Source: Falsiroseomonas tokyonensis
GTDB lineage: Bacteria > Pseudomonadota > Alphaproteobacteria > Acetobacterales > Acetobacteraceae
Length of the DNA stretch: 64,000 nt
Direction of reading: 5' to 3'
Assembly: GCF_019024325.1 (NCBI RefSeq)
Contig: NZ_JAFNJS010000003.1
Location: forward strand, 124,001-188,000
The notes under the pieces were generated by a model. The model saw nothing but the letters and a program-made list of their open reading frames with translations, did no database searches and was not told the DNA's origin. Position numbers and translations under genes: made by a program. This document shows, piece after piece, positions 40,603 through 58,462 of the stretch (positions within the stretch are counted from its first letter, which is position 1; each line of letters starts with the position of its first letter).

Positions 40603-41334
40603 ATGCAGTTGCAGGAGGTGCGGTCCTTTCTCCGGGGCGCCGCGGACCTGGTGATGGAGAGCCTGCCCGCCGTGATGGAACGGCGGCGGGACATCACCTG
40701 GAAGGGCGATGGCAGCCCGGTGACGGCGGCCGACCTGCATCTCGAGGCGCTGGTCCGCGCCCACGTCGCCCACCACCTGCCTGGCGCCGATTTCGTGGGG
40801 GAGGAAAGCTACCGCGAAGGCGACGCCCTGGCCGGCGGCCATCTGGTGCTGCTGGACCCGATCGACGGGACGGAGAATTTCTGCTCCGGCCTCAAGGAAT
40901 GGGGCGTCTCGCTCGGCCTCTGGCAGGGCCGGGACCATCTGGGCAGCCTGCTGCTGCTGCCGGAGCTTGGCCAGTCGCTGATGACCGGGGACCGGATCGT
41001 GCCGGAGCGGTCGCGCATCGTGGGCTTCTCCTCCTCCTTCCATGAGGAGATCGCCCGGCAGATGGGCGAGGTGCGGGAGTCGAGGATCACCGGATGCGCG
41101 GTCTATAACCTGTACAACGTGGCACGCGGCGCCTTCGCGCGCTTCTGCAACCCGAAGGGGGCCCATGCCTGGGACCTGCTGCCCGGGCTGATGCTGGCGC
41201 GCGAGCAGGGCTGCGATGTGATGGTCGATGGGAGCCGGTTTGATGGACGATTTCTCGAGCCTCATCGCCGATATCGCGTCGATATACAGCACCGACACGA
41301 TCTTCATCCTGGGCAAGGGCCGCTCGGCGGATGA
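40603..41334 (+). CDS. Inositol monophosphatase/CysQ family phosphatase
   Basis: A 243-residue magnesium-dependent phosphatase. The metal-binding motifs are visible: FVGEESYREG (Glu-Glu), LLDPIDGTENF (Asp-x2-Asp) and the C-terminal AHAWDLLPGLMLAREQG. It could remove a phosphate from a sugar intermediate, as NANP phosphatases do in sialic-acid pathways, or act on 3'-phosphoadenosine. The last 92 bases overlap the next gene in another frame. The start MQLQEVRSF at 40603 fits family length. Confidence 0.88.
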   Translation: MQLQEVRSFLRGAADLVMESLPAVMERRRDITWKGDGSPVTAADLHLEALVRAHVAHHLPGADFVGEESYREGDALAGGHLVLLDPIDGTENFCSGLKEWGVSLGLWQGRDHLGSLLLLPELGQSLMTGDRIVPERSRIVGFSSSFHEEIARQMGEVRESRITGCAVYNLYNVARGAFARFCNPKGAHAWDLLPGLMLAREQGCDVMVDGSRFDGRFLEPHRRYRVDIQHRHDLHPGQGPLGG

Positions 41335-42772
41335 GGTGCGCAAGGAGGTCTTCCGCGGCTCCCTCGTCATCGGGCTGAACGATGCCGAGCGCATCGCGCC
41401 CACCGATATCACGGTCTTCCATGCCGAATGGGTGAAGCAAGGGCTGCGCGCGATGGCCCGCGGCGCGCAGCTCTATGTCACCTCGACCGATTTTGCCGTG
41501 CCGGGCCGCCGCGTGCTGCGCGTGCCGCACCATCCGCTGACGCAGGAATCCTCCGACCTCGTCATGCAGCGCTTCCTGACGGATGAGCTGGCGCTGGAGG
41601 ATATCCTGTTCCTCACCGCGCTGAAGATCGCCCGCAAGGTGGCCGAGGCGCGCGGCCGGCCGCAGACCGTCTATATGGTGGGCTTCGATTTCCGGCCCGA
41701 GACGGGCTACAGCCACGAGATCACCACCGACTACGCGCCGCAATCGGCCGATGAACGCCAGGCCCGCATCTCGCAACAGGAATTCTACTTCCTCAACACG
41801 CTTTACTTCCTGCAGCAGTCGAACCTGGTCGTGAAGCATGTCGGCACGCGCGCTTTCAGCGCCATCGCGCCCGAGGATCTGAACCGCCTTTTCCTGGGCA
41901 GCGCCGCGGTGCCGGATGCGCCGCGCCATGCGGTGGCGGTGGTGGCGGAACTCACCACCAACCACTTCGGCGACCGCGCACGGCTGGAGCGGATGATCCG
42001 CGCCGTGCGCGCCGCCGGCGCGGATTTGGTGAAGCTGCAGAAGCGGGATGTGGAGACCTTCTATCGGAAGGAACAGCTCGACTCAGCCTACCGCTCCCCC
42101 TTCGGCCGCACCTTCGGCGACTATCGCCGCCAGCTGGAGCTGTCGGCGGAGGATTTCGCCTTCGTCGATGCGCTGTGCCGCGAACTCGGCCTCGGCTGGT
42201 TCGCCTCGCTGCTCGACCAGCCCTCCTTCGAATTCATGCAGCAATTCGCGCCCACCCTGGTGAAGCTGCCCTCCACCATCTCCGAGCACCGGGACTACCT
42301 GGCGCATGTCGCGCGCAGCTATCGCCACGGCGTCGTGCTCTCCACCGGCATGACCGACCAGGCCTATGAACGCTGGGTGCTGGAGACCTTCACGAACTGC
42401 GAGCGGCTGTACCTGATGCAGGCGAACAGCGCCTATCCGACGCCGCTGCACGAATGCAATATCGGCGTGGTCCGCCACTACGACCATTTGTCCAAGCAGC
42501 ACCGTCGGATCGTGCCGGCCTATTCCAGCCACGACCTGGGCTGGAAGGGCTCGGCGCTCGCGGTTGCCGCCGGGGCGCGGATGGTCGAAAAGCATGTGAA
42601 GCTGGGCAATACGGAATGGGCGCATTTCGACGCGGTGGCGGTCGATCTCACCACGCCGAAATTCCGCGAATATGTCGAGGCGATCCGGGAGGCGGAGCTG
42701 ATCACAGGCAGCGAGGAAAAGCGCGTGAACCCGACCGAGCACCACAAGTACTTCGTCCGGGCGACCGGCTGA
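41243..42772 (+). CDS. NeuB-like nonulosonate synthase fused to an N-terminal Rossmann-like domain
   Basis: A 509-residue protein. Residues about 1-225 form an unfamiliar domain starting TIFILGKGRSADEVRKEVF, recalling the GxGxS start of DUF115 or sialyltransferase-type folds. Residues about 230-509 are a NeuB-type TIM barrel: VVAELTTNHFGDRARLERMI, VKLQKRDVETFY, LSTGMTDQAYE, NSAYPTPL, YSSHDLG and VEKHVKL. NeuB condenses phosphoenolpyruvate with an N-acyl hexosamine. The usual C-terminal SAF (antifreeze-like) domain is absent. GGGAGCC precedes the ATG at 41243; an ATG at 41228 is possible. Overlaps the IMPase gene by 92 bases. Confidence 0.82.
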   Translation: MDDFSSLIADIASIYSTDTIFILGKGRSADEVRKEVFRGSLVIGLNDAERIAPTDITVFHAEWVKQGLRAMARGAQLYVTSTDFAVPGRRVLRVPHHPLTQESSDLVMQRFLTDELALEDILFLTALKIARKVAEARGRPQTVYMVGFDFRPETGYSHEITTDYAPQSADERQARISQQEFYFLNTLYFLQQSNLVVKHVGTRAFSAIAPEDLNRLFLGSAAVPDAPRHAVAVVAELTTNHFGDRARLERMIRAVRAAGADLVKLQKRDVETFYRKEQLDSAYRSPFGRTFGDYRRQLELSAEDFAFVDALCRELGLGWFASLLDQPSFEFMQQFAPTLVKLPSTISEHRDYLAHVARSYRHGVVLSTGMTDQAYERWVLETFTNCERLYLMQANSAYPTPLHECNIGVVRHYDHLSKQHRRIVPAYSSHDLGWKGSALAVAAGARMVEKHVKLGNTEWAHFDAVAVDLTTPKFREYVEAIREAELITGSEEKRVNPTEHHKYFVRATG

Positions 42773-42806
42773 CCTGCCCCGCCCGCCCCTGCCGCCGGAG
42801 AGCCGC

Positions 42807-43517
42807 ATGCCCCCCTATATCGGTTTCCTGCCCTGCCGCGCCGGCAGCGAGCGGGTTCCCAACAAGAACACCCGCCCCTTCGCCGGCTTCGAGAAGGGGC
42901 TGATCGAGCTGAAGCTGCGCCAGATGGCCGCGGTGCCGGAACTGGCCGAGATCATCGTCTCATCCAACGATCCGCAGGTGCTGGATTATGCGGCGGATTT
43001 CGCGGCGAAGCTCGATTCCCGCATCAAGCCCCTGCCGCGCCCGGACGAACTCGGCCGCAGCAGCACCGCGATGGACGACTTCATCCTCTATATCGCGGAT
43101 CTGGTGCAGGAGGGTGTGATCGTCTGGAGCCACGTCACCTCCCCCTTCGTGCGGGGCGAGGACTACCGGCACTTCATCCGCGAATACGAGGCCTGCCTGG
43201 CCCGCGGTCATGATTCGCTCATCACCGTCACCACGCTGCACAAGTTCCTCTGGGACGAGAACGGGCCGATCAACTACAACCCGCATCCCATCAAGTGGCC
43301 GCGCAGCCAGGACATCAAGCCGATCATGGAAATCAATCATGCGGCCTATATCATGCCCTTCGCGCTGATGCGGGAAACCCGTGACCGCATCGGCCGCAAG
43401 CCCTACTTCATGCCGATCGCCGAGGACCTCGCCATGGACATCGACTGGCTGGACCAGTTCATCCTGCTGGAACGCCTGGCGCGGCTGCGCCTGGATGCCG
43501 GCGAGCAGCTGATCTGA
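42807..43517 (+). CDS. Acylneuraminate cytidylyltransferase-like protein (NeuA family)
   Basis: A 236-residue CMP-sugar synthetase. The nucleotide-binding start GFLPCRAGSERVPNKNTRPF matches the NeuA pattern (AR-x-GS-x-R-x3-KN), with HVTSPFVRGEDY for CTP or sugar contact and AEDLAMDIDWLDQF for the metal-binding Asp residues. It would activate the NeuB product with CTP. It lies 34 bases after the NeuB-like gene. Together with the IMPase this gives synthesis, dephosphorylation and activation of a nonulosonic acid; which sugar is unknown. Confidence 0.88.
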   Translation: MPPYIGFLPCRAGSERVPNKNTRPFAGFEKGLIELKLRQMAAVPELAEIIVSSNDPQVLDYAADFAAKLDSRIKPLPRPDELGRSSTAMDDFILYIADLVQEGVIVWSHVTSPFVRGEDYRHFIREYEACLARGHDSLITVTTLHKFLWDENGPINYNPHPIKWPRSQDIKPIMEINHAAYIMPFALMRETRDRIGRKPYFMPIAEDLAMDIDWLDQFILLERLARLRLDAGEQLI

Positions 43518-43553
43518 CCGCCATGACCGTCCCCCGCCGCCTGGAACCGACCG

Positions 43554-46160
43554 ATGCCGGCTGACACGCTTCCCACCAGTGGCATCGGCGGCCTCGATAT
43601 CGGCGTGGTCATCCCGGCCTATCGGCAGCCGGGCTTCCTGGCGGAGGCGCTGGAATCCGTCCTCGCCCAGCAGGGCCCGCTGCGCATCGGCGCCGTGGTG
43701 GTGAATGACGGCTGCCCCTTCGCGCAGACCCATGCCACGGGGCTTGCCTATGCCAGGCGCCATCCCGACCGCATCGCCTATCTGCGCCGCGCCAATGGCG
43801 GACTCTCGGCCGCGCGCAATACCGGCGTGGACTTCCTGCTGGCGGCCGCGCCGGCCTGCCGCGGCATCTTCCCGCTCGATGCCGACAACCGCCTGAAGCC
43901 GCCCATGCTGGCCCGCGCCCAGGCCTTGCTGGATGCAGCACCAGCCGATTGCGGCTGGGTCTATCCGGATTTCGACTTCTTCGGCTTCGAGGCGAACTAC
44001 ACCACCGCCGGCGACTATTCCCGCTTCATGCATCTCGCGGAGAATGTCTGCGAGGCCGGCAGCCTGGTGCGGCGAGAGGTCTTCGCCAGCGGCCTGCGCT
44101 ACGACGAAAGCATGCGCCAGGGCTTCGAGGATTGGGACTTCTGGCTGCGCGCCGCGGCCGCCGGCTGGCGTGGCCGGCACCTGCCCCATTCCGGCTTCCA
44201 GTACCGCAAGCGGGCGGAGAGCATGCTCGCCACCTCGGAACGCCAGCGCGGCACCATCCTCGGCCAGATGCGCAACCGCCAGGCGCGGCAGCTGCAGGTG
44301 CGCCACCTGGCGCCGCTGGAGGCCGCGGAGGTGCCGCGCTTCGCGCTGTTCCTGGAAGGGGAGGAGCAGGTGGGCTTCCTGCTGGATCCCGCCGCGGCGC
44401 CACCGGCCAGCCAGCCCATCGCCGCGGCGCGCGACCGCTTCATCCAGGCCAGCCACACGCCGGCGGCGCTGCATTTCCCGCCGCATTGCGCCTTCACCAC
44501 GCCAGCGACCCTGGCGGTGCTGCGCCGGTCCGGCCTGCTGCGCAACATCTTCTACCACGCCAACCTGGCGCTGCGGGATGCGCATGTGCTGGCGGTGACG
44601 ATCGAGATGGCGGCGGATGGCGCGCTCGGCCTCGCCTTTACCCCCGCCCCCGCGGCGGATGGCCGCGCCAGCCGCGCCGCGCTGATCCTGGCCCGCACGC
44701 AATTGCTGCAGGAGGTGGCGCGGGACACCTATCGCGGCTGGATCAACTCCTTGCGGGAGGAGGCGCCGCGACCGCTGGTCGCGCATCTTGCCGTGACGCT
44801 GCCCGAGGCAACGGAGGCGCCGCCCGCTGTGGAGTTCCTGCTGGCCGAGGTCGACGCGATGCGCGACCGCACCCTGGCGCGTTCCGCCCTCGGCACCGAA
44901 TGGCGGACGGATGACAGGCGTCCGCGCTTCTCGGCGCAGGATCTCTATCCGGAACTCGCGCGCTGCGGCGCCATCCTGCCCTATGTGCCGCCGGGAGACC
45001 GGCGCGACATCGGCTTCATCCTGCCGCTGTTTGCCTTCGGCGGCGTGGAAAAGGTGGTGTTCAACTATGCCGCGGCGCTGCGCGAACAGGGCTGGCGGCC
45101 GCATCTCTTCATCACCGGCGCGCATCGCATGCAGCCGCAGCCAGGCCATTTCGAGGTCTTCGAAAGCGTGAACTTCTTCGAAGGCCAAGGCATCGAGGGC
45201 GGCGACTACGAGAAGCTGCATCTCGGCGCCCCCGTCTCCGGCTTCGCCAATTGGCGCGACATGCGGGACGCGGTGGGGCTGCTGGCCAGCATGGATGTGG
45301 TGCTGAACACCCATGCGCTGGGCGGCCATGGCATCATGCAGCAGCTGCGCCAGCAGGGCGTGCAGACCTGGCTCGGCCTGCACTTGGTGGAGAAGGGGCC
45401 GCTCGGCAATCCGCTCGGCAATCCGCATATCGCGCTCGCCTATGAGGGCGCCTATGACGGCTTCGTCGTGATCTCCGACAAGCTGCGCGACTGGTGCATC
45501 GGCCAGGCGGTGCCGGAGGAGAAGATCGTCCGGGTCCTCAACGCGCCTTCCTACGCCGCCGATCCTTCCGCGGTGGCGCAGGGGCTGGCGGCGCGGCAGG
45601 TGGCGGAGGACCGGCCGCTACGGGTGCTTTATCTCGGCCGGCTGGATGCCCAGAAGGGGCTGGAGCGGCTGCGCGACATCATCCTGGAAACCCAGGGCCC
45701 CGCCATCACCTGGCGCGTGGTCGGCAAGGCCGTGCTGAACGAAACGGTCTTCGATCTCTCGGCCGCCGGGCTGGTCATCGAGCCGCCGGCGATGACGGCA
45801 GCGGCGCTGGATGCACTCTATGCCTGGGCGGATGTCGTGGTGCTGCCATCCCACTTCGAAGGCGTGCCGCTGACCATCCTGGAAGCCCAGCGCTTCGGCT
45901 GCGTCATGCTGGCCACCGATGTCGGCGCGGTGGCGGAGGTGGTGCGGGACCGAGTGGATGGCTTCCTCGTCTCCAATGCGCAGCAGGATCCGGCGCTGGT
46001 CTCGCAATGCGCCGTCATCCTGCAGCAGCTGGCGGCGGATCGCGCCAGGCTGCGGCAGATGGCCGCGGCCGCGGCGGCACGTGGCGCGGAATCGAGCTGG
46101 AGCCGCAATATGCAGGACTGGGTCCTGCGCATCGAGCAGGGGTTGAGGCGGACGGCATGA
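43554..46160 (+). CDS. Bifunctional glycosyltransferase, GT2 plus GT4 domains
   Basis: An 868-residue cytosolic protein in one uninterrupted frame. Residues about 13-230 are GT2/GT-A: DIGVVIPAYRQPGFLAEALE, RRANGGLSAARNTG, the PLDADNRL metal-binding Asp and GFEDWDFWLRAA. A linker of about 250 residues follows. Residues about 485-865 are GT4/GT-B: RDIGFILPLFAFGGVEKVVF, VLYLGRLDAQKGL, LPSHFEGVPLTILEAQRFG (E-x7-E) and DGFLVSN. It could add two different sugars to one acceptor. It is coupled to the next gene by ATGA. Confidence 0.9.
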   Translation: MPADTLPTSGIGGLDIGVVIPAYRQPGFLAEALESVLAQQGPLRIGAVVVNDGCPFAQTHATGLAYARRHPDRIAYLRRANGGLSAARNTGVDFLLAAAPACRGIFPLDADNRLKPPMLARAQALLDAAPADCGWVYPDFDFFGFEANYTTAGDYSRFMHLAENVCEAGSLVRREVFASGLRYDESMRQGFEDWDFWLRAAAAGWRGRHLPHSGFQYRKRAESMLATSERQRGTILGQMRNRQARQLQVRHLAPLEAAEVPRFALFLEGEEQVGFLLDPAAAPPASQPIAAARDRFIQASHTPAALHFPPHCAFTTPATLAVLRRSGLLRNIFYHANLALRDAHVLAVTIEMAADGALGLAFTPAPAADGRASRAALILARTQLLQEVARDTYRGWINSLREEAPRPLVAHLAVTLPEATEAPPAVEFLLAEVDAMRDRTLARSALGTEWRTDDRRPRFSAQDLYPELARCGAILPYVPPGDRRDIGFILPLFAFGGVEKVVFNYAAALREQGWRPHLFITGAHRMQPQPGHFEVFESVNFFEGQGIEGGDYEKLHLGAPVSGFANWRDMRDAVGLLASMDVVLNTHALGGHGIMQQLRQQGVQTWLGLHLVEKGPLGNPLGNPHIALAYEGAYDGFVVISDKLRDWCIGQAVPEEKIVRVLNAPSYAADPSAVAQGLAARQVAEDRPLRVLYLGRLDAQKGLERLRDIILETQGPAITWRVVGKAVLNETVFDLSAAGLVIEPPAMTAAALDALYAWADVVVLPSHFEGVPLTILEAQRFGCVMLATDVGAVAEVVRDRVDGFLVSNAQQDPALVSQCAVILQQLAADRARLRQMAAAAAARGAESSWSRNMQDWVLRIEQGLRRTA

Positions 46161-48070
46161 GCATCCTTCACATCCGGGCGGCCGACCTGCCGGCGCTGAT
46201 GTCCGGCCAGCCCGCGGTGCTGGCCAGCGCCACCCTGCCGGGGGTGGAAAAGCTGGCCCTGCCGGGGCTGGCGCTCTGGCTGCTGGCGCGGCGGGAGGAT
46301 CGGCTTCTGCTGCAGCGGCATGGCGCGGCGCAGGCCGAGGGCCCGCTTGTGCCACTGGCGTTGCCACCGGCCGGCGCCCTGGCCCTGCTGGCCGCGAACG
46401 AGGCCGAGGTCGCGCCCGTCGCCGCCTGGTGGCAGGCGGCCTCCGGCCAGCCTGCGCCGCTGCAGATCGTGGCCGATGCGGCCGCCGCGCTGCCCGATCT
46501 GCTCGGCCGCCTGCTGGCGGAGCTGCAGGACAGCCAGGCGCGCGCCGTGCAGCTGGAACGCAGCCTGGTCGAGACCCGGCTGGACTATGAGGAAACCCGC
46601 ATCGCCATCGCCGCCGCCGCGCGCAGCCTGGGCCACCGCCCGCCGGCGCCGCTGACCCTGGCGCTGGCGCTGGAAGCCTCGGCGGAGCGGATCGGCGCGG
46701 CGGCGGAAGGGGAGCGCCTGTTCCTCCGCCAACCTTTGGCCCGCAGCCTGGACGGGCTGGCGGCGCTGGCGGTGCATATCGGCGGCATCAGCGCCGCCAC
46801 CACCGGCCCGCTGCGGCTGCGCATCCGCGGCGAGGAAAGCGGCCGCATCGTCGCGTCCTGGACCGTGGAGATGGCGGAGGTGACGGAGGGCTGGCTGACC
46901 CTCGACCTGCCCACGCCCCTGGCCCCGCTGCGGGAAACGGCGGTGCTGGAAATCTCGGCCGATGTCGCCGGACCGCATTCCCTGGCCTTCTCCCTCGACC
47001 AGGGCTGGGTGCCGGCGGAAGCGGCGGCGACGCCGGCCGGCGGCGAGGGGCAGGGCCGCGCCCTGGCGCTGCGGATCTGGACCGCGGGGCTGGGCGCGCG
47101 CTTCGTGGTGCCGGCGCATTGGAACTGGGACGAGGCCGGCGCCAGCCTGCCGCTCACGGGCGTGCCGCAGGCCATCGCGCCCGCGGAGCTTGCGGCCGCG
47201 CGGGTGTTGTCCGGTGACTGGGACGGGTTGCAGGCGAAGCTGAACGGCGCAGGCACCGCCGCACTGCGGCTGCCGCGCGTGTCGCTGGGCGGGGCGGATG
47301 TGCTGCGCCTGCGCTGGAACCTTTCGGGCAGCGCCGCGCAGCCGCTGCGCCTGGCCGCCTGGGCGCTGTCCCCCGGCCAGCCGGTAACGCGGCTGGAGGC
47401 GCTGTCGGCGCAGGCTGCCTTCTCCGGCTGGCGCGACATCGTGCCGGGGCAGGAGGGGGCGCTGACCCTGCTGCTGCCGCTTGCGCTCGGCACCCAGGCG
47501 CAGATCGTGCTGGCGGTCGAATGCCCCGATGCCGCGGCCGAGGCGCAGCTACAGCTGACGGAGGCCAGCCTGCTCGCCACCCGCGACCCGGCCGTCCTGC
47601 GCACCCTGCAGCGGGAAGCGGCGGCGGAACTGGTGCCGGCGGAGCCGCCGGGGCCTGGTCTCGGCCGGGTGGAGCTGCTGCAGCACCTCGTCAGTGGCCG
47701 CTACCAGCATTTCGACCTGCTGCTCCATGAGGTGACGGGTGGCGGGCAGGACTGGCCGCAGCTGCGCTTCAAGCTGGCCATCGCCGCCAGCGGCCCGCTG
47801 CTGGAATTCCGCCGCGCCAAGGGCTGGCCGGATGCCTTCGCCCGTTGGCCGGGCACGGAGACGGACCAGTTCGGCCCCGTGCTGCGCGTGCGCCAGCCGC
47901 AGCTGCGCGAATTCCGCGATGGTCTGGCGCATCCGCGCGATGCGGCGCTGGCCGCCACGCTGCTGGCCCTGCTGGAGCAGATCGCCGAGGAAGCCGGGCG
48001 CCTCGCCAGCCTGGACGCCGAGGCCGCCACCGGATGGCGCGAGGCCGCGCTGGCGCTGCGCGACGCCTGA
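46157..48070 (+). CDS. Large uncharacterised protein of the glycan cluster
   Basis: A 637-residue protein with no signal peptide or membrane helix. An N-terminal alpha/beta part (about 1-105) is followed by a helical segment with coiled-coil character (LGRLLAELQDSQARAVQLERSLVETRLDYEETRIAIAA, about 113-150, split here from a longer run). Several beta-sandwich-like stretches follow (LRLRIRGEESGRIVAS, LEISADVAGPHSLAFSLD) that look like carbohydrate-binding modules. I do not recognise the family. Its ATG overlaps the stop of the GT2-GT4 gene, which ties it to the glycan. Confidence 0.7.
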   Translation: MSILHIRAADLPALMSGQPAVLASATLPGVEKLALPGLALWLLARREDRLLLQRHGAAQAEGPLVPLALPPAGALALLAANEAEVAPVAAWWQAASGQPAPLQIVADAAAALPDLLGRLLAELQDSQARAVQLERSLVETRLDYEETRIAIAAAARSLGHRPPAPLTLALALEASAERIGAAAEGERLFLRQPLARSLDGLAALAVHIGGISAATTGPLRLRIRGEESGRIVASWTVEMAEVTEGWLTLDLPTPLAPLRETAVLEISADVAGPHSLAFSLDQGWVPAEAAATPAGGEGQGRALALRIWTAGLGARFVVPAHWNWDEAGASLPLTGVPQAIAPAELAAARVLSGDWDGLQAKLNGAGTAALRLPRVSLGGADVLRLRWNLSGSAAQPLRLAAWALSPGQPVTRLEALSAQAAFSGWRDIVPGQEGALTLLLPLALGTQAQIVLAVECPDAAAEAQLQLTEASLLATRDPAVLRTLQREAAAELVPAEPPGPGLGRVELLQHLVSGRYQHFDLLLHEVTGGGQDWPQLRFKLAIAASGPLLEFRRAKGWPDAFARWPGTETDQFGPVLRVRQPQLREFRDGLAHPRDAALAATLLALLEQIAEEAGRLASLDAEAATGWREAALALRDA

Positions 48071-49985: not shown

Positions 49986-50678
49986 TCAGTCGAAGGCTGG
50001 CACGTCGCGCGCCAGGCCGCCATGCAGGTCCAGCATGCGCTGCCGCCAGGCTTCCACCGGATCATCCGCCGCCAGCAGCTTGAAGGGGCTGACGCAGCGC
50101 GCCCATTGGAAGCCGCCGAAGACGATGGAATCGACATGCAGCGGCGCGGCGCCGCCCAGGAAGGGCTGCGTCCGCAGCATCATGCGCAGCGGCTGCAGGT
50201 CCTTCCGGAAGACCTCCACCTGCCGGTCGCGATCCGCCTGCACCGCCTCCAGGCTCATGCCGAAGCGGGCCTCCCGGCTCGTGCGGAAATACTCCACATC
50301 GCCGGGGTCCAGCACCTTCACGATATCCGCCACCACCAGCCGCACCAGCCCGGCCATCACCACCGCATCGGCCCAGGCATTGATGAAGCGCGCGCTGGCG
50401 CGGCCACCCTCGCCGCCGAACAGGCTGGGGCGTTCGGGATAGGTCTCCTCCAGGTATTCGGCGATGGTCCAGCTGTCGGAGACGGCGCGGTCGCCATCCA
50501 GCAGCAGGGGCACCTTCTCCCCGCCATGCCGGGCCAGCAGGTCCTTCTGCACGAAGCGCCAGGGGATGGTTTCCACCGGAAGCCCCTTGGCCGCCAGGGC
50601 CAGCTTCACGCGCCAGCAATAGGGGCTGAAACGCCGGGCCGGATCGGCACCGGCCAGGTCGTACATCCGCAGCGTCAT
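49986..50678 (-). CDS. Glutathione S-transferase family protein
   Basis: A 230-residue GST-like protein. The thioredoxin-like N-terminal domain has FSPYCWRVKLALAAKGL (a Cys where many GSTs have Ser or Tyr), EKVPLLLDGDRAVSDSWTIAEYLEETYPE, and a helical C-terminal domain from about 90. The layout recalls beta-etherase-like GSTs, though substrate is unknown. Its ATG overlaps the stop of the large TPR-like gene by four bases. Confidence 0.9.
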   Translation of the reverse strand: MTLRMYDLAGADPARRFSPYCWRVKLALAAKGLPVETIPWRFVQKDLLARHGGEKVPLLLDGDRAVSDSWTIAEYLEETYPERPSLFGGEGGRASARFINAWADAVVMAGLVRLVVADIVKVLDPGDVEYFRTSREARFGMSLEAVQADRDRQVEVFRKDLQPLRMMLRTQPFLGGAAPLHVDSIVFGGFQWARCVSPFKLLAADDPVEAWRQRMLDLHGGLARDVPAFD

Positions 50679-52936
50679 GGCAGCTCCTCGATTTCCCCGC
50701 GCAGCACGGCGCGCGCGCCTTCCGCATCGCCGAGCGCGGTCAGCCGGGCGGCAATCTCCTGCCGCTCCGCCAGGCCCTCCGGCGTCGCCTCTGCCAGCGC
50801 GGCGCGGATGCGCAGCGCGGCCAGAAGCTCGGCACGGCGGCCCTGGCGGTCCAGCGCCGCCTCGTAGCGTGCATGCCAGCCGGCGCCGAGCACCGCCCCC
50901 GCCAGCTGGCGCAGCGCCGCCTGCGAATCCTGCGGCGCGGCGGCCAGCACCAGGAACAGCGCCGCCTCCCGCTGCGTGCGGTCGAGCTGCGGCAGCAGCG
51001 CGCGCAGCGCCTCCAGCCCCGGCCCGGCGCCCTCGCCGCGCAGCCGCGCCAGCACCAGGGGCGGGCCGAAGCGAGCCGGATCCTCCGCCGCGCGCTGCGC
51101 CAGCAGGGGCAGGGCCTCGGCCGGGGCCAGCACGGACACCAGCGCCAGCCGGTCGCGGCCGGCCTCGTCGCGCGCCTGCGCGCCGCGCAGCAGCCGCGGC
51201 AGCGCCGGGTGCTGGGCGGCGCCGAACAGGCCGGCGCCCGCCACTTCCGGCGCCGCCGCCAGCAGCGCCACCACCCGGTCGCGGGCCTCGATATCGCCCG
51301 CCCAGTCGAGCAGGTTCAGCGCCGCGGCGAGATTGGCAGGGCCGAGCGGCCGGGCCAGCGCCGCGGTCACCGCCACCTCCTCCGCCGTCCAGCCCTCGGG
51401 CAATCCGGGCAAGGACCGCAAGGCAGCGGAAGCCGCCTCGGCCAGCGCCGGCAGGCGGCGCTGCGCCGCCAGGGTCAGCGCCTCCGCCAAGGCGGGGGCA
51501 GGGGCGGTGCCGCCGCCGTGCAGGAAGCGCACCGCATCCTCCAGCTTGTCCTCCGCCAGGGCCAGGCGCAGCCAGGCCTCGCCCGCCACCGGGCTGTCGC
51601 CGCGCAGGCGCTCCAGCAGCGGCAGGGCGGCGGCGCGGCGGCTGGGCAGGTTGGCCAGCTCGGCGAAAAGGCGGATGGCCTGCGCATCGGGCGCGGCCTG
51701 GATTTCCCGCCGCAGCCGGTCCTGCGCCGCCTGGTCCAGGCCCAGCTCGCGCAGCACGGCGGCCAGGCCCCGCGCGCCCTCGGCGGTGGCGGGCGGCTGG
51801 TCCAGGGCAAGCTGCGCGTAACGGCGCGCCTCCGCCCGGTCGCCGCGCGCCAGGGCCAGCACCGCCGCAGCCTCCGGCCGTGCGGCCAGGCGGGACGGGT
51901 CCAGCCGGCGGGCGAGCGAGGGGTCGCGCGCGGCGCGGGCAGCCTCCAGCAGCCGCAGCGGCAGCCCGGCCGGCCAGGCGTCCGTCGGCAGCAGCGCGGC
52001 GACGGTGAAGGCTTCCTCCAGCTGGCCCTCGGCCAGGGCGAGGTCGATCAGCTGGGCGCCGCCGCCGGGGGGCAGGCCTGCGGTGGCGCGCAGCGCCATC
52101 AGCCGGGCGAGCGCCGCGCCGCCCCAGCCGGCGCGCGCCTCGGCCTGCGCCACGGCGAGCGCGATGGCGGGCTGGGCCAGCGTCTCCGCCGGCAGTCCTT
52201 CCAGCAGATACAGCGCCAGGTCCGGCCTTCCGTCCTTCATCAGGACGCGGCGCAGCGCCTCCATCAGGTCCGGCGCCACTTCCGCCAGCAGGGCGCCGAG
52301 CGGGCGCATCGCCATGGCCGGGTCGGGCAGCCGGGCGGCCGCCTGCATGGCCCGCAGGGCGAGCTCGGGGGTGGGGTTGCGGCCGATCGCGGCATGCAGG
52401 CCGGCAAAGGCGCCGGCGGCGTCACCGGCCTCGATGCGCAGCGCGGCCAATTGCCGCGCCTCCTCATCCGTCGTCGCGCCGATGGCGGAAAGCCGTTCCA
52501 GCGCCAGGCGCGCGGCTTCCGCATCGCCGAGGTCGCGGCGCAGCATCATCGCCTCCCGCAGCGCGGCGGGGTCCCCGGTCAGCGCATGCAGCCGTTCCAG
52601 CACCTCGGCCAGCTGCACCGGGCGATGGCTGGCCCGCAGCTGGGTGGCGAGGCGGCGCAGCGGCGCGGGATTGTCCGGCTGCGCCGCCACGGCGCGTTCC
52701 AGGCTGGCGGTGGCGCGGTCCTCCGCCGGGCGCAGCGGCTCGGCGAGGCGCAGCGGCGGGGGCGCGGCGGGGGGCGGCAGCAGCGCCGGGGTTGCCAACG
52801 CGGCCAGCCCGGCCGCACCCAGCGCCAGGCCGAAGCGCCGCGCCGCGGAAAGCCCCGCCGGCTGGCGGGGCCCGAGCGGGCCCAGGAGCATGGCCAGGGG
52901 CATGAGCGGCTGGCCGGGCAGGACGCGGGTGGACAT
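50675..52936 (-). CDS. Membrane-anchored TPR-like repeat protein beside the pelD-like genes
   Basis: A 753-residue protein with one hydrophobic segment near residues 30-50 (FGLALGAAGLAALATPALLPP) and then some 650 residues of Ala/Leu-rich helical hairpins that read as degenerate TPRs (SLERAVAAQPDNPAPLRRLA, RRDLGDAEAARLALERLSAIG). No beta-barrel or enzymatic domain is seen. It is divergent from the pelD-like gene across 169 bp. In Pel systems PelB has a periplasmic TPR region plus a porin; this protein could match only the TPR part. The ATG at 52936 follows a TTG at 52945. Confidence 0.7.
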   Translation of the reverse strand: MSTRVLPGQPLMPLAMLLGPLGPRQPAGLSAARRFGLALGAAGLAALATPALLPPPAAPPPLRLAEPLRPAEDRATASLERAVAAQPDNPAPLRRLATQLRASHRPVQLAEVLERLHALTGDPAALREAMMLRRDLGDAEAARLALERLSAIGATTDEEARQLAALRIEAGDAAGAFAGLHAAIGRNPTPELALRAMQAAARLPDPAMAMRPLGALLAEVAPDLMEALRRVLMKDGRPDLALYLLEGLPAETLAQPAIALAVAQAEARAGWGGAALARLMALRATAGLPPGGGAQLIDLALAEGQLEEAFTVAALLPTDAWPAGLPLRLLEAARAARDPSLARRLDPSRLAARPEAAAVLALARGDRAEARRYAQLALDQPPATAEGARGLAAVLRELGLDQAAQDRLRREIQAAPDAQAIRLFAELANLPSRRAAALPLLERLRGDSPVAGEAWLRLALAEDKLEDAVRFLHGGGTAPAPALAEALTLAAQRRLPALAEAASAALRSLPGLPEGWTAEEVAVTAALARPLGPANLAAALNLLDWAGDIEARDRVVALLAAAPEVAGAGLFGAAQHPALPRLLRGAQARDEAGRDRLALVSVLAPAEALPLLAQRAAEDPARFGPPLVLARLRGEGAGPGLEALRALLPQLDRTQREAALFLVLAAAPQDSQAALRQLAGAVLGAGWHARYEAALDRQGRRAELLAALRIRAALAEATPEGLAERQEIAARLTALGDAEGARAVLRGEIEELP

Positions 52937-53105
52937 TCGCCGCAACAGGTAGCGGGCATGACCCCAACCCGCCAGGGCTTTCGCGGCTTCGCCTCACAGG
53001 CGAGTACAACTCCCGCGCGGCCCTGGCGCGTCGCCGGCTTCACCGATATTGCTGGTGCGGGGCGCGGGTGGGGATGATGGCAGGTTCGGGGATGCGCGCG
53101 TGAAG

Positions 53106-54809
53106 ATGCCGACGGCCGCGGCGGGGCGGCGTGCCGCCTCGCCACCCGCGTCGCCCGAAGGATCCGCCGAGGCCGCGGCGATTCGGCCGCACGGCCAGGC
53201 TGCGGCGCCCGAGCCGACCCCCGATGTGGTGCCGGACCCCTGGGCGGAACCCTGGGCGGCGCAGACGCCGCCGGCCGCCTCGCCACCGGCGCCCGGCGCG
53301 GCGCGGCGCGCCTGGTCCTGGCTGCGCCGCCCCCGCCCTGCGGAGGCCGCGGCGGCGCGGCTGCGCGCCATGGCCGAGCCCGAGGCCGAGCCCGAGGCCG
53401 GGGAGGCGCCACCGCCACCCGAGGCCCGGCCGCTGCCCGGGACGCTGCCCGAGACGCTGCCCTTCCCCAACCTCTCCCCCTTCAGCCTGCCGATGCGGCC
53501 GCTCGCCGAGGGGCTGGCCGGGCTGCTGCTGCTGGTGGTGCTGGACTGGGCGGTGACCGGGGGCAGCGGCTTCGCGCATTGGCCGGCCTCCCCCCTGGTT
53601 CTGCCGGTGCTCTACGTCGCCGCCCGCTACGGCATGGTAGCCGGCTGCGCCGTGGCCGTGGTGGCCGGCGTGCTGCGCCTCGGCCTCGCCGTCACCAGCG
53701 ATCTCTGGAACAGCGGCGCCTGGGCGCTGCCGCTGGCCTGGCCGCCCCTCGCACTGATGGTCGGTGCCTTCACCGACCTGGCACGGCATCGCATGCGACA
53801 GGCCCAGGCCGCCGCGGCCGCCGCCATCGCGGACCGGGAGGCGATGGCCGAATCGAACCAGCGCCTGGCCGACCGCGCGCTGGAGCTGGATGCGCGGCTC
53901 GGCGCCCGGCTGCAGGCCACCACCGCGGTCTTCGAGGCCGCGCGCATCCTGGGCAATGGCACGGAAGGCGTCATCCGCGGCGCCACCGGCCTGCTGCGCG
54001 CCGCCACCGGCTGCACCGCCTGTTCCTTCTGGATGGCCGAGGACCGCACCCTGCACCTGGTGGCGGCGGAGGGCTGGCCGCCCGAGGGTAGCGGCAAGCT
54101 GTCGCAGGTCCTGCTGCCCGGCCCGCTGACCGATGCGATCGGCCGCGGCCGCGGCGCCCTGGTGGCGACGCGGCAGGCGGACCGCCTGGCCCTGGGCGGG
54201 GAGGGGCTGCTGGCCGCGCCGGTGCTCTCGCCCTGGGATGGCTTCCTGCTCGGCATGGTGAAGATCGAGGATATCGGCTTCAGCGAGCTGGGGCTCGAGA
54301 CCATCGCGGCGCTGGAAGCCGCGGCCGGCTGGATCGGCGCCGCCCTGGCCGAAGCCCGCGCGCGGGAGGCGGCGGAGTCGGCCGCCGGCGGCAGCGCCCT
54401 GTCGGGCTTCCCGGCCGCCGGCGGGCTGATGGTGCCCGGCGAGGAAGCCTCCCGCGCCATTTCCGTGATGACCGGGCTGGCGCGCCGGCTGGGCTTCGAA
54501 CTGGCGCTGCTCTCGGCCGAGATCCCGGCCGGGCCGCGCGGCGCGGCGGCGCTGGAGGCGACGCGGGCGGCGATGGCCGAGGCCTTCCGCGGCTCCGACC
54601 TGCTGCTGGAGGCGCGGCTGGAGGAACGGCGCCTGTCCATCCTGCTGCCCGGCGCCGCGGTGGCGGGGGCGGAAATCGCCGCCGCCCGGCTGCGCGCCCT
54701 GCTGGCCCAGCGCGCGCCCTCGGCCACCGCGCAGGTGGTGGTCAGCGTCGCGCTGCTGCATGGCATGACCGGCGGCGGCTGGCAGGTGGCCGAGGCGCAT
54801 GGCGGTTAG
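53106..54809 (+). CDS. PelD-like c-di-GMP receptor (TM-GAF-degenerate GGDEF)
   Basis: A 567-residue protein with PelD architecture. A Pro/Ala-rich cytosolic N-terminus (about 1-125) precedes about four membrane helices (135-225), a coiled coil (about 235-265), a GAF domain (about 270-415) and a degenerate GGDEF domain (about 420-560). The GG(D/E)EF site is replaced by RLEERR, so it cannot be a cyclase. The inhibitory-site motif is kept as R495-G-S-D498 with another Arg 35 residues on (R530), the same spacing as R367, D370 and R402 of P. aeruginosa PelD as I recall it. Start is the ATG at 53106; a GTG at 53100 is possible. Confidence 0.8.
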   Translation: MPTAAAGRRAASPPASPEGSAEAAAIRPHGQAAAPEPTPDVVPDPWAEPWAAQTPPAASPPAPGAARRAWSWLRRPRPAEAAAARLRAMAEPEAEPEAGEAPPPPEARPLPGTLPETLPFPNLSPFSLPMRPLAEGLAGLLLLVVLDWAVTGGSGFAHWPASPLVLPVLYVAARYGMVAGCAVAVVAGVLRLGLAVTSDLWNSGAWALPLAWPPLALMVGAFTDLARHRMRQAQAAAAAAIADREAMAESNQRLADRALELDARLGARLQATTAVFEAARILGNGTEGVIRGATGLLRAATGCTACSFWMAEDRTLHLVAAEGWPPEGSGKLSQVLLPGPLTDAIGRGRGALVATRQADRLALGGEGLLAAPVLSPWDGFLLGMVKIEDIGFSELGLETIAALEAAAGWIGAALAEARAREAAESAAGGSALSGFPAAGGLMVPGEEASRAISVMTGLARRLGFELALLSAEIPAGPRGAAALEATRAAMAEAFRGSDLLLEARLEERRLSILLPGAAVAGAEIAAARLRALLAQRAPSATAQVVVSVALLHGMTGGGWQVAEAHGG

Positions 54810-55896
54810 CGCGGAACGGCGGCATCAGGAGCGCCGCGCCCGGCCGCGGCCGGGCCCGGACCGCCGCGCCCCGCGCGGCCTGCTGCCGGGCGGCGAGGGC
54901 CAGGGCCTGCCTGCCCTGGCCGGGCTCGGCCTGGCGCAGGCGCTGGTGGTGCTGGCGATGCTGGCTGGCTGGTGGGCGCTGGCGCTGGGCCTGCACCTGC
55001 TGGGCTGCCTGGCCCTGCCGAGCCTGCTGCGCCAGCGCCCGCCCGGCTGGCCGGGCGCGGTGCTGCGGCTGCTGGCCATGACGCTTCCGGCACTCGGGCC
55101 GCTGGCCATGCTGGGCGCCCTGGCCGCGCTGGCCATCGGCCTGCCGCGACGGCTGCGCGATGTGGCGCCGCCCTTGCCGGAAGATCCGCTGGATGCGCGG
55201 CTGGATGCCATCGCCGCGGCAGGGCCTGGCGGCGGGCTGCCGGATGGGCTGCTGCTGGAATCGCTCGGCGATGTGCTGCGCTGGGGCCATGCGCGGCAGA
55301 AGGCGCGGGCGCTGGACCTGGCGGCCGAACCCTCCCGCCCCGGCGGCGCCGCCCTGCTGCGTCTGGCGCTGAGCGATCCGGACCCGGCCGTGCGGGCGCG
55401 AGCCGAGGCGCTGCGCCCGGGGGTGGAACTGCGGCTGCTGGAGGCAGCGGCGGAATGCCGCGCCGCGGCGCGCGGCCAGTCCGGCGCCGCGGCTATCGCC
55501 GCGCAGCGGGCCCTGGCCCGCGCATTGGATCGCGCCGCCGGCTCCGGCCTGCTCGATGCCCCGCGCGCCGATGCCTGCCGGGCGGAGGCCGCCGGACTCT
55601 GGCAGGCGCTGGCCGAGGCGAGCGGCGCGGATGCGGAGGCCGAGGCGGCGCTGGGCCGCGAGTTGCTGGCGCTGGGCGATCTGCCGGCGGCGCGGCTCGC
55701 CCTGGAAGCCGCGGTGACGCGCGGGGCGGCGGGGACGGCGGCGCTCGGCTGGCTGGCCGAATGCCTGTTCCGCGCCCGGGATTTCGCGGCGCTGGAGGCG
55801 CTGGTGGCGCGCTGGCGCCCGGTGCTGGAGGCCGAGGCGCAGGAGGGTACTGCAGGCCCGCATGCTGGCGCCTGGCGCCTCTGGCTCGCCCGATGA
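54799..55896 (+). CDS. PelE-like membrane protein
   Basis: A 365-residue protein. A basic N-terminus (RRHQERRARPRPGPDRRAP) precedes two hydrophobic regions (about residues 41-70 and 85-115), then a soluble helical domain with PelE-like text (LGDVLRWGHARQKARALDL and ALLRLALSDPDPAVRARAEALRP) and TPR-like hairpins to the end. PelE partners PelD at the inner membrane in Pel secretion. It overlaps the pelD-like gene by 11 bases and the next gene by four, so all three are co-translated. The assignment rests on architecture, sequence flavour and position. Confidence 0.65.
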   Translation: MAVSAERRHQERRARPRPGPDRRAPRGLLPGGEGQGLPALAGLGLAQALVVLAMLAGWWALALGLHLLGCLALPSLLRQRPPGWPGAVLRLLAMTLPALGPLAMLGALAALAIGLPRRLRDVAPPLPEDPLDARLDAIAAAGPGGGLPDGLLLESLGDVLRWGHARQKARALDLAAEPSRPGGAALLRLALSDPDPAVRARAEALRPGVELRLLEAAAECRAAARGQSGAAAIAAQRALARALDRAAGSGLLDAPRADACRAEAAGLWQALAEASGADAEAEAALGRELLALGDLPAARLALEAAVTRGAAGTAALGWLAECLFRARDFAALEALVARWRPVLEAEAQEGTAGPHAGAWRLWLAR

Positions 55897-56978
55897 GCGC
55901 GGCCCTGAACCCCCCGCAGGGCGAGTCCCCAATGGCCCCCGGCGCGCTGGTGGCCGGCGCCTGGCTGGGGCCGGCGCTGGCGGCGCTGGCCGGGCTGGCG
56001 CTGCTGCGCCTGGCCGGCATAAGCGGCGAATTCCTCGGTCTGCTGATCATCATCGGCCTGTCGCTGCTGGCCGGCGCGCCGGCGGCGCTGCTGGCGGCAC
56101 GGCGGGGCCTGCAGGGGCTGCCGCTCGGCCTGGCCATGGGCGGCGCCGGCCTGGCCGCCTTCCTGCAACTGCATCTGGTGGACCGGCTGGGCCTGGCGGA
56201 GGCGGTGCCGGGCGGGCTGGCGGCGGCGGCGCTGGTGCTGCTCTGGACCGGGCTCACCCTGGCGGCGGGCTTCGGCCTGCCGCCGCTGGCGGGGCTGGCG
56301 GCGGGGCTGCTGGCGGGCGGGCTGCTGGCCTGGGGGCTGGGCGGGCTGGCCGGCGGCTTCGGGGGGCTGGCCCTGGCGGCGGCCATTGCCGGCTTCGTCG
56401 CAACGGTGCCGGCCGCTGCTCTGCCGCTGGGCCTGCCGCGCCGCCTGCCGCGGGGTGGCACTGACCCGGTGCTGGCCGGGCTGGCCCTGGCGCTGGCGGT
56501 GCTGGCCGGGCCGCTTTCCACCTATCTGCTCGGCGGGCCGCTGATGGCGGTGACCCTGGCCCTGCTGGTGGCGCTGCCGGGGCTGGTCTTCGTCGCCCTG
56601 GCCCGCGACCTGGCACCGCTGCCGCTGGCCACAAGGCTGCTCGGCCTGCAGGCCATGGCGGTGGTGCTGGGCCTGGTCATCGGCTCCGCCCCCGCCGCGG
56701 CCGGGCTGGTGGCCGCCGATTCGCTGCCCGCCTATCGCCTGGCGCTGCTCGGCGCCGGTTTCCTGCCGGCCTTCGCGGCGCTGCTGGCGGCGCTGCTGGC
56801 GCGCGAGGCGCCGGGGGCGGCCACGCTGGCGGCGGGGCTGCTGGCGGCGCTCTCGGCCGGGCTCGGCCCGCTGCTGGGCTGGGTCGATCCGCGCCTGTCG
56901 GATCACGGCGCGCTGCTCGCGCCGCTGCTGGCCACCGGCTTCGCCTTCTGGCTGCTCGCTCGGGAGCAAGACGCATGA
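55893..56978 (+). CDS. Polytopic membrane protein in the pel-like operon
   Basis: A 361-residue, extremely hydrophobic protein with about ten predicted helices (for example [55 protein letters not shown]) and short charged loops. PelG in known Pel systems is a 12-helix Wzx-like transporter of about 450 residues; this protein is shorter and I could not see clear PelG motifs, so that name is not applied. Start overlaps the pelE-like stop (ATGA), and its own stop overlaps the glpK start. Confidence 0.6.
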
Positions 56979-58462
56979 CGGACCTGCTGCTCGCCATCGA
57001 CCAGGGCACCACCTCCACCCGCGCCATCCTGCATGGGCCGGACCTGGCGCCGCGCGCCAGCGCGCAGCTTCCCCTGGCGCAGCACTTCCCGGCGCCGGGC
57101 TGGGTGGAGCATGAGCCGGAGGAAATTTTTGCGGCGACACTCGCCACGATGCGGGACGCGCTGGCGCAGGGCGGTGCCTCGGCCGCGGACCTGGCCGGCA
57201 TCGGCATCACCAACCAGCGCGAGACCACCGTGCTCTGGGACCGGCGCAGCGGGCGGGCCATCCATCGCGCCATCGTCTGGCAGGATCGTCGCACCGCGGC
57301 CCATTGCGCGCGGCTGGCGGCGGAAGGGGCGGGGGCGCTGATCGCGGAGCGCAGCGGGCTGCTGCCGGATCCCTATTTCTCCGCCACCAAGCTGGCCTGG
57401 CTGCTCGAGAATGTGGGCGGCGCGCGGGCGGCCGCGGAACGCGGCGACCTCGCCTTCGGCACCATCGACAGTTTTCTCCTGTGGCGGCTGACCGGCGGGC
57501 GGGTGCATGCGACGGATGCGACCAATGCGGCGCGCACCATGCTGTTCGACATCCGCCGCGGCTGCTGGGACCAGGACCTGCTGAAGCTGTTCGGCATCCC
57601 CGAGGCGCTGCTGCCGGAGGTGCGGGACAATGCCTGCGAGTTCGGCAGCACGGAGCCCGGGCTGCTCGGCGTGGCGGTGCCGGTGCGGGGCATGGCGGGG
57701 GACCAGCATGCGGCGATGCTCGGCCAGGCCTGCTTCGCCCCGGGCATGGTGAAATCCACCTATGGCACCGGCTGCTTCCTGCTGTTGAACACCGGCGATG
57801 TCGCGGTGCCCTCGCAGAACCGGCTGCTGACCACGCTGGCCTGGCAGCTTGGCGGCCAGCGGACCTATGCGCTGGAAGGCGCCATCTTCATCGCCGGCGC
57901 GGCGGTGCAATGGCTGCGGGACGGGCTCGGCATCATCAAGGACGCGGCCGAGAGCGGGCGGCTGGCGGCGCAGGCGGATCCGGCGCAGGGGGTGTATTTC
58001 GTGCCCGCCTTCACAGGCCTTGGCGCGCCGCATTGGGATGCCGAGGCACGCGGCGCCATCCTGGGCCTGACCCGCAACACCGGCCCGGCCGAGATCTGCC
58101 GCGCGGCGCTGGAGGCGGTGGCCTTCCAGACGCGGGACCTGGTGGAGGCGATGCAGGCCGATTGGGGCGCCCGCGGCGGCGCGACGGTTCTCCGAGTCGA
58201 TGGCGGCATGACCGCCTCGGACTATGCCATGCAGGCGCTGGCGGACCTGCTGGGCGCGCCGGTGGATCGGCCGGTGGTGCAGGAAACCACGGCGCTGGGG
58301 GCGGCCTATCTCGCCGGGCTGCAGGCCGGGCTGCTGCCGCCGCCCGGCCCGGCCGTCGCGCATTGGCGGCTGGACCGCCGCTTCCAGCCGGCCATGCCCC
58401 GCGCCGAGGCGGATCGGCGCCATGCCGGCTGGCAGGACGCGGTGCGCCGCGTGCTGACATGA
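56975..58462 (+). CDS. glpK: Glycerol kinase
   Basis: A 495-residue FGGY-family glycerol kinase, full length. Signatures include [15 protein letters not shown] at the N-terminus, [45 protein letters not shown], the [12 protein letters not shown] phosphate loop and [23 protein letters not shown] (FGGY signature 2). It phosphorylates glycerol to sn-glycerol-3-phosphate. The ATG overlaps the stop of the polytopic gene by four bases, which places it in the pel-like transcript. No glpD or glpF is adjacent. Confidence 0.96.

Follow-up and report, generated by a model that had tools for sequence, protein, structure and literature searches.

The genome of the alphaproteobacterium Falsiroseomonas tokyonensis (6.16 Mb in 59 contigs, 99.7% complete) carries, within a 64,000-nucleotide stretch of contig NZ_JAFNJS010000003.1 (the window, to which all coordinates refer unless a locus is named), a block of four genes encoding homologues of PelD, PelE and the tetratricopeptide repeat (TPR) half of PelB, together with a polytopic membrane protein. 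The polytopic protein is probably a diverged PelG, for which we write PelG′, and the block, in which no PelF was found, would then have the composition PelB(TPR)-PelD-PelE-PelG′, where only the assignment of PelG′ is graded as probable. This reading of the block, which is likewise probable, is what is new here. We interpret the block as a retained membrane complex of the PelDEG type that senses cyclic di-GMP (c-di-GMP) and works with a non-Pel partner, an interpretation to which we give an even chance of being correct. It builds on the homology of PelD, PelE and the PelB TPR part, on the failure to find a PelF domain in the sampled genomes of the genus, on the genes being present or absent together, on the retained c-di-GMP residues and on the constraint on the proteins.

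The block occupies positions 50675–56978. The initial annotation had described four genes here, a TPR gene diverging from three co-translated genes, and this layout was borne out: the minus-strand TPR gene diverges from the PelD-like, PelE-like and polytopic genes, the frames of which overlap serially with one another and with the glycerol kinase gene glpK, and the TPR gene overlaps a glutathione S-transferase (GST) gene (Table 1). Two identities had escaped that annotation: the TPR protein corresponds to the TPR half of PelB, and the polytopic protein is probably a PelG derivative.

Homologues of PelD, PelE and the PelB scaffold

Alignments made from Falsiroseomonas proteins only were compared with alignments from four real pel loci. 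The PelD-like protein matched PelD with an hhalign E-value of 3e-38. A search of the PDB sequences with the PelD profile gave five matches at E ≤ 0.1, all of them PelD and all weak (E 0.06–0.1), and single PelD-like proteins used as queries recovered no PelD there. The AlphaFold model of the part encoded from position 53385 had a mean predicted local distance difference test score (pLDDT) of 72.3, and its six best PDB matches were all PelD crystal-structure chains, with E-values of 1e-7 to 5e-6 and template modelling scores (TM-scores) of 0.46–0.54 by target length. The membrane part, the GAF domain and the degenerate GGDEF fold of PelD are thus present by profile and model, and on these two lines of evidence the protein is a true PelD homologue. 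The Pfam model PelD_GGDEF (PF16963), which was matched neither in the F. tokyonensis genome nor in any of 14 control genomes, is insensitive here and also misses the PelD of two real pel loci. Otherwise, Pfam returned a sub-threshold GAF match in the PelD-like protein, one sub-threshold match in the TPR protein, and no match in the PelE-like and polytopic proteins.

From its N-terminus, the PelD-like protein comprises a Pro/Ala-rich extension of approximately 100 residues, membrane helices, a coiled coil, the GAF domain and the degenerate GGDEF domain; its start codon was picked by inspection, the open reading frame (ORF) opening at 53049. The Pro/Ala-rich extension (window 53100–53480) is found in most Falsiroseomonas copies and is short in the PelD of pel loci L018 and L019.

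In a profile alignment to PelD chains, an RGSD motif aligned on R367–D370 and R530 on R402 of Pseudomonas aeruginosa PelD, and R497, D500 and R530 were invariant in all eight Falsiroseomonas PelD-like proteins. According to the part of PMC2170427 that was available, P. aeruginosa PelD requires R367, D370 and R402 to bind c-di-GMP. The Falsiroseomonas protein is predicted from these residues to bind c-di-GMP as well.

The PelE-like protein, the gene of which adjoins that of PelD, matched PelE of the four pel loci with an hhalign E-value of 1.6e-25 and is by this comparison a PelE homologue. The TPR protein matched the PelB TPR genes of the same loci (E 6.5e-19) in an alignment that stops before the porin part. 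A hidden Markov model (HMM) built from the Falsiroseomonas TPR proteins only was compared with 18 further pel loci, 14 of which show a PelB-TPR gene; at E ≤ 1e-5 it hit this gene in 8 of the 18 (best E 3e-22) and nothing else there. Judged from these profile matches, the protein is the TPR scaffold half of PelB. The membrane segments of the TPR and PelE-like proteins were estimated by hydropathy.

The polytopic protein and PelG

Compared with five PelG proteins, the polytopic family gave an hhalign score of 29.3, with a probability of only 6%. None of 300 block-shuffled alignments reached this score (means 13.0–13.6, maximum 21.7), and reversed alignments scored approximately 14. With 18 PelG proteins the score was 33.8 and the probability 17%, the alignment being colinear over profile positions 21–356; none of 150 shuffles reached the score, and alignment in global mode failed (score 1.7). 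When 23 polytopic ORFs were compared singly with PelG′, five were its own orthologues, and the top two of the remaining 18 were PelGs (E 0.016 and 0.053), followed by a non-PelG ORF in third place and the PelG of L018 in tenth. At E 1e-5, an HMM built from the polytopic family had no hit among the ORFs of 18 pel loci, and comparisons with NCBIfam, Pfam, PHROGs and the PDB sequences gave nothing informative.

The structural model of PelG′ was of low confidence (mean pLDDT 54.6, predicted TM-score 0.49) and contained 13 helices, compared with 11 hydropathy peaks. It matched WzxE and MATE proteins of the MOP superfamily first and MurJ lower. TM-scores reached 0.44, no match had E ≤ 0.001, and the list also contained some transporters of the major facilitator superfamily and others. 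Among 47 aligned PelG positions that are conserved in at least 17 of the 18 PelGs, the polytopic family has the same residue at 20, as counted in an alignment optimised for matches. The family members are 338–374 residues long, and PelG 454–465. The profile and model data suggest that the polytopic protein is a probable PelG derivative, shortened and very diverged.

If PelG′ were a working flippase, the block could be a c-di-GMP-gated exporter of a different polymer or a lipid-linked glycan, with the TPR scaffold passing the product across the periplasm. The matches of the model, to WzxE and MATE proteins first and to MurJ lower, are consistent with such an exporter, as is the retention of the TPR scaffold. 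However, the model is of low confidence and without a match at E ≤ 0.001, most of the conserved polar PelG positions are unmatched, and porin queries had no match in either the window or the flanks examined in seven relatives. We therefore consider the exporter quite unlikely.

Search for the missing pel components

The PelF domain (PF11997, DUF3492) was found neither in the F. tokyonensis genome nor in any of the 15 genomes of the genus, its own included, under conditions where both positive controls from outside the genus scored. The full PelF profile gave only generic GT4 matches to its C-terminal part (positions 257–511 of 513), and it did so in all 15 genomes, carriers and non-carriers of the block alike. 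The PelG domain (PF16933), searched for in the F. tokyonensis genome, had no match there and matched one of 14 control genomes; the flanks of the other genus genomes were covered by tblastn with PelG proteins. GH114, PelA-like, porin, PelF and PelG proteins from real pel loci, used as tblastn queries, found nothing in the flanks of seven relatives (L053–L059), and in the window they gave only a short GT4 hit with PelF (66 codons, E 9e-6), which falls within the unrelated glycosyltransferase gene at 43554–46160. The sensitivity of these searches is partial: of 18 pel loci (L096–L113), 15 were matched by the porin queries, 11 by the PelA-like queries and 7 by the GH114 queries. The negative result for PelA (GH114 and PelA-like queries) and the porin applies to the window and the seven flanks and is not genome-wide, and PelC was not searched for. 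With these limits, the claim of the initial annotation that no PelF, PelA-type protein or porin lies beside the block held.

A complete pel system might nevertheless be split, its pelF, pelG and remaining genes lying at other sites of the genome. Rearranged pel loci do exist, both among our loci (L104) and in a survey (PMC7112194), the available part of which reports that pel genes have been lost, split and rearranged; moreover, the genome is in 59 contigs, and the searches for PelA, porin and PelC had the scope given above. Against this stand the absence of PelF and PelG domains from the F. tokyonensis genome, the absence of the PelF domain from all 15 genus genomes with working positive controls, and the generic nature of the GT4 matches to the PelF profile. 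A split complete system was accordingly rejected as far as PelF and PelG go, and we regard it as very improbable overall; finding one would have spoken against the initial annotation, which in this respect was not refuted.

We also considered the glycosyltransferase encoded at 43554–46160 as the missing partner and rejected it, as tblastn found this gene only here and in genome G126 among the flanks examined. Beyond the M20 peptidase gene, these flanks extend for 3.6–6.9 kb, compared with 2 kb to the glycosyltransferase in the window; the G130 contig has no such flank.

Distribution within the genus and selection

The sample consisted of 99 relatives, 15 of them in the genus (F. tokyonensis included), which we took as Falsiroseomonas; the block-carrying records are named Falsiroseomonas (three), Roseomonas (three) and Acetobacteraceae bacterium (one). 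The PelD protein query matched 9 of the 99, namely F. tokyonensis itself, seven congeners and one genome of another family, and the TPR query likewise matched 9, F. tokyonensis and the same seven plus a fragment in G126. Falsiroseomonas stagni DSM 19981 is among the strains that carry the block. In an evenly drawn sample of the family, PelD matched 2 of 120 genomes (F. tokyonensis and G115). A plasmid search with PelD gave nothing useful.

Between the GST gene and glpK, the block is intact in 8 of the 15 genus genomes, ambiguous in one and not found in six. The seven relatives have it in the same position next to glpK; the G121 copy spans two contigs, and the polytopic gene of G128 was recovered by translation after tblastn had missed it. 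Conservation of the PelD, PelE and polytopic triad, on which the initial annotation depended, was thus not refuted. PelD and TPR were not found anywhere in the genomes of G123, G125, G127, G129, G095 and G132, and PelE and the polytopic gene were not found in the stretches around their glpK. In three block-free genomes, GST and glpK are 60–76 bp apart (between tblastn match ends); in two, GST was also not found near glpK, and the G129 contig is short. In G126, a contig end truncates the TPR gene, PelD was not found, and the PelE frame runs into an unrelated amidase-like sequence (L044:8281–10424), which may reflect a rearrangement or an assembly error.

In a tree of four flanking proteins, the carriers fell in two groups plus G128, which was nested among non-carriers (support 92, pairing with G095). 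The data were incomplete, each genome covering 700 to 1528 of the 1528 positions, and several nodes were weak, so that the number of losses is uncertain. Carriage at the same site suggests an old presence and several losses; G128, however, may have regained the block.

The ratios of nonsynonymous to synonymous change (dN/dS) were calculated by the Nei-Gojobori method, which ignores codon bias, in DNA that is GC-rich. For the five closest pairs they were 0.27–0.31 for TPR, 0.25–0.37 for PelD, 0.25–0.35 for PelE and 0.10–0.14 for glpK, and the medians over 28 pairs were 0.54, 0.45, 0.47 and 0.23, respectively, with 0.74 for the polytopic gene. From these values, TPR, PelD and PelE are constrained and the polytopic gene is only loosely so. 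Since the block stands at the same place in 8 of 15 genus genomes and protein change is constrained, weakly in the polytopic gene, it is more than a chance assembly.

These data bear on whether the block is a relic, that is, an ancestral pel locus that has lost pelF, pelA and the porin and whose remaining genes are decaying without current function. PelG′ is shortened and fast-evolving, and the failure to find the block in 6 of 15 genomes, together with its apparent breakage in G126, suggests repeated loss, as expected of a relic. On the other hand, open frames (weak evidence on their own, because GC-rich DNA keeps frames open) and gene order are kept in eight genomes down to 54% PelD identity, dN/dS is well below 1 in three genes, and the c-di-GMP residues are invariant. 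A relic thus appears unlikely.

The position of glpK allows a further alternative, in which the block is a membrane signalling device coupled to glpK and the GST gene that connects glycerol or lipid metabolism with c-di-GMP. The outermost genes of the block overlap the starts of glpK and the GST gene, and glpK is adjacent to it both in the window and in all seven relatives. However, glpK was present in all seven further genus genomes and stays in place without the block, so the coupling may be only positional. We know of no interaction between products of the block and those of glpK or the GST gene, although none was looked for, and we consider such a metabolic link improbable.

Comparison with pel loci outside the genus

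We examined 23 PelD loci from outside the genus (L018/L061 from one genome, L019, L060, L062, L063 and L096–L113), which come from other Alphaproteobacteria, an Acidobacteria metagenome-assembled genome (MAG) and a Lentisphaerae MAG. PelF was in the same locus as PelD in 21 of the 23, the other two being cut by contig ends, and PelG was in 19; for the 18 loci L096–L113, PelF matches below 100 bits were left out of the listing. A scan of genome contigs returned 11 PelD loci: seven belong to the genus and have no PelF in the flanking sequence, and four others, among them L061, which was assessed as L018, have PelF. At the class level, 53 of 385 genomes matched PelD, and in F. tokyonensis plus 19 of these the match was long and strong (E ≤ 1e-60); the remaining matches were short and weak, nearly all of them to the GGDEF part. 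One of the 19 (G146) is the source of L018, and in the other 18 loci PelF was found in 16, with two cut by contig ends.

Locus L104 (G512) was rejected as a second PelF-less locus: its pel genes are reordered (PelD, PelE, PelB-TPR, then PelF), and the start of a PelF gene lies at the margin of the sequence retrieved. In L018, from Rhodospirillales bacterium TMPK1 (G146), pelD and pelE are separated by a gene for a Cache-domain methyl-accepting chemotaxis protein (L018:9529–11361).

The PelB-TPR, PelD and PelE proteins of the Falsiroseomonas block are homologous to those of these loci, whereas its TPR gene is divergent and PelF, PelG, PelA-like, GH114 and porin queries are unmatched within it. 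Like the PelD-PelE-PelF-PelG complex of P. aeruginosa, the block has PelD and PelE in this order, followed by a probable PelG derivative, and keeps the c-di-GMP residues. It differs in that no PelF was found, in that the PelG derivative is approximately 100 residues shorter and polar-poor, and in the Pro/Ala-rich N-terminal extension of its PelD-like protein. Reduced pel gene sets also occur in the Gram-positive Bacillus cereus and Streptococcus intermedius, but the accessible sections of PMC12345266 describe these as keeping pelF and pelG and making Pel, with a pelDEA(DA)FG set without pelB. With the altered-domain classes of PelD, the Falsiroseomonas protein shares the membrane and GAF core; unlike S. 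intermedius PelD, as presented in the same sections (PMC12345266), it keeps the c-di-GMP-binding GGDEF part.

Layout and neighbouring genes

The features of the block and its two borders are collected in Table 1. The GC content of the block (50675–56978) is 78.9%, compared with 72.1% for the window. Approximately 2.6–9.4 kb from the block, at 41258–48070, a NeuB-family gene, a GT2-GT4 fusion glycosyltransferase gene and a gene for a DUF6212 protein are clustered, which suggests a nonulosonate or surface-glycan cluster.

Table 1. Window coordinates of the block, its predicted c-di-GMP residues and the bordering genes
Feature	Coordinates	Strand	Basis
Glutathione S-transferase-like gene, one border of the block	49986–50678	-	Pfam
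PelB-like TPR scaffold; transmembrane segment at the N-terminus (from residue ~38) followed by TPR repeats, without the porin part	50675–52945	-	hhalign, HMM, hydropathy
Divergent intergenic region between the TPR and pelD-like genes, presumed shared promoter region	52946–53099		position
PelD-like c-di-GMP receptor (predicted)	53100–54809	+	hhalign; AlphaFold model vs PDB
RGSD, the RxxD c-di-GMP motif (residues 497–500), equivalent to R367–D370 of P. aeruginosa PelD	54588–54599	+	profile alignment
R530, equivalent to R402 of P. aeruginosa PelD	54687–54689	+	profile alignment
PelE-like protein; membrane segments close to the N-terminus, followed by a helical-repeat part	54799–55896	+	hhalign; hydropathy
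PelG′ polytopic protein, 361 residues, probable shortened, polar-residue-poor PelG derivative	55893–56978	+	hhalign, shuffles, model
Glycerol kinase-like gene (FGGY; glpK), other border of the block	56975–58462	+	Pfam

Discussion

According to the portion of PMC8461298 that was available, P. aeruginosa recruits PelF to the membrane through a complex of PelD, PelE and PelG, and it is not clear how Pel synthesis is activated by c-di-GMP-bound PelD. By analogy, the Falsiroseomonas block would be the recruiting half of the Pel complex, kept without PelF. The PelD-like protein would sense c-di-GMP through its degenerate GGDEF domain and pair in the membrane with the PelE-like protein and the derived PelG, joined by the membrane-anchored PelB-type TPR scaffold. 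Binding of c-di-GMP would then switch the complex onto a different partner, the likeliest candidate being an unlinked glycosyltransferase or some other envelope enzyme, and a non-Pel envelope product would be made or positioned as the outcome.

Several findings weigh against this interpretation. The homology of PelG′ to PelG has an hhalign probability of only 6–17%. Among 16 conserved charged or amide positions of PelG, PelG′ keeps two, with six unaligned; charged residues make up 5–7% of the polytopic family, about half of the 9–14% in PelG, a skew that may in part be tied to the high GC of the block; and dN/dS of the polytopic gene is 0.48–0.75 in the five closest pairs, with a maximum of 0.97 over 28 pairs. 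Because of these last three points, a transport role of PelG′ is doubtful. The block has probably been lost several times and is therefore dispensable. In addition, no partner was found, the nearest glycosyltransferase gene (43554–46160) having been seen near the block, among the flanks examined, only here and in G126.

The initial annotation had suggested a repurposed c-di-GMP-controlled complex that moves or makes something other than Pel. Repurposing gained from the conservation of the block, the failure to find a PelF domain in the 15 genus genomes or a PelG domain in that of F. tokyonensis, and the retention of the c-di-GMP site, whereas 'moving something' was weakened as the default, because the probable PelG derivative matches few of the conserved polar residues. 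A more specific form of our interpretation, possible but doubtful, is that the pel-derived complex no longer makes or exports polysaccharide, and that c-di-GMP-bound PelD, PelE, a transport-dead PelG and the PelB scaffold would constitute a switchable platform recruiting a different envelope enzyme.

Among the papers listed by literature searches, in a collection that covers subscription journals only in part, we found no description of a PelF-less PelDE locus and nothing relevant on Falsiroseomonas and exopolysaccharide. A pelD gene alone is no proof of Pel production. A natural core of the PelDEG type without PelF separates the sensing and recruiting half of the system from the polymerase, and could show what this half does alone.

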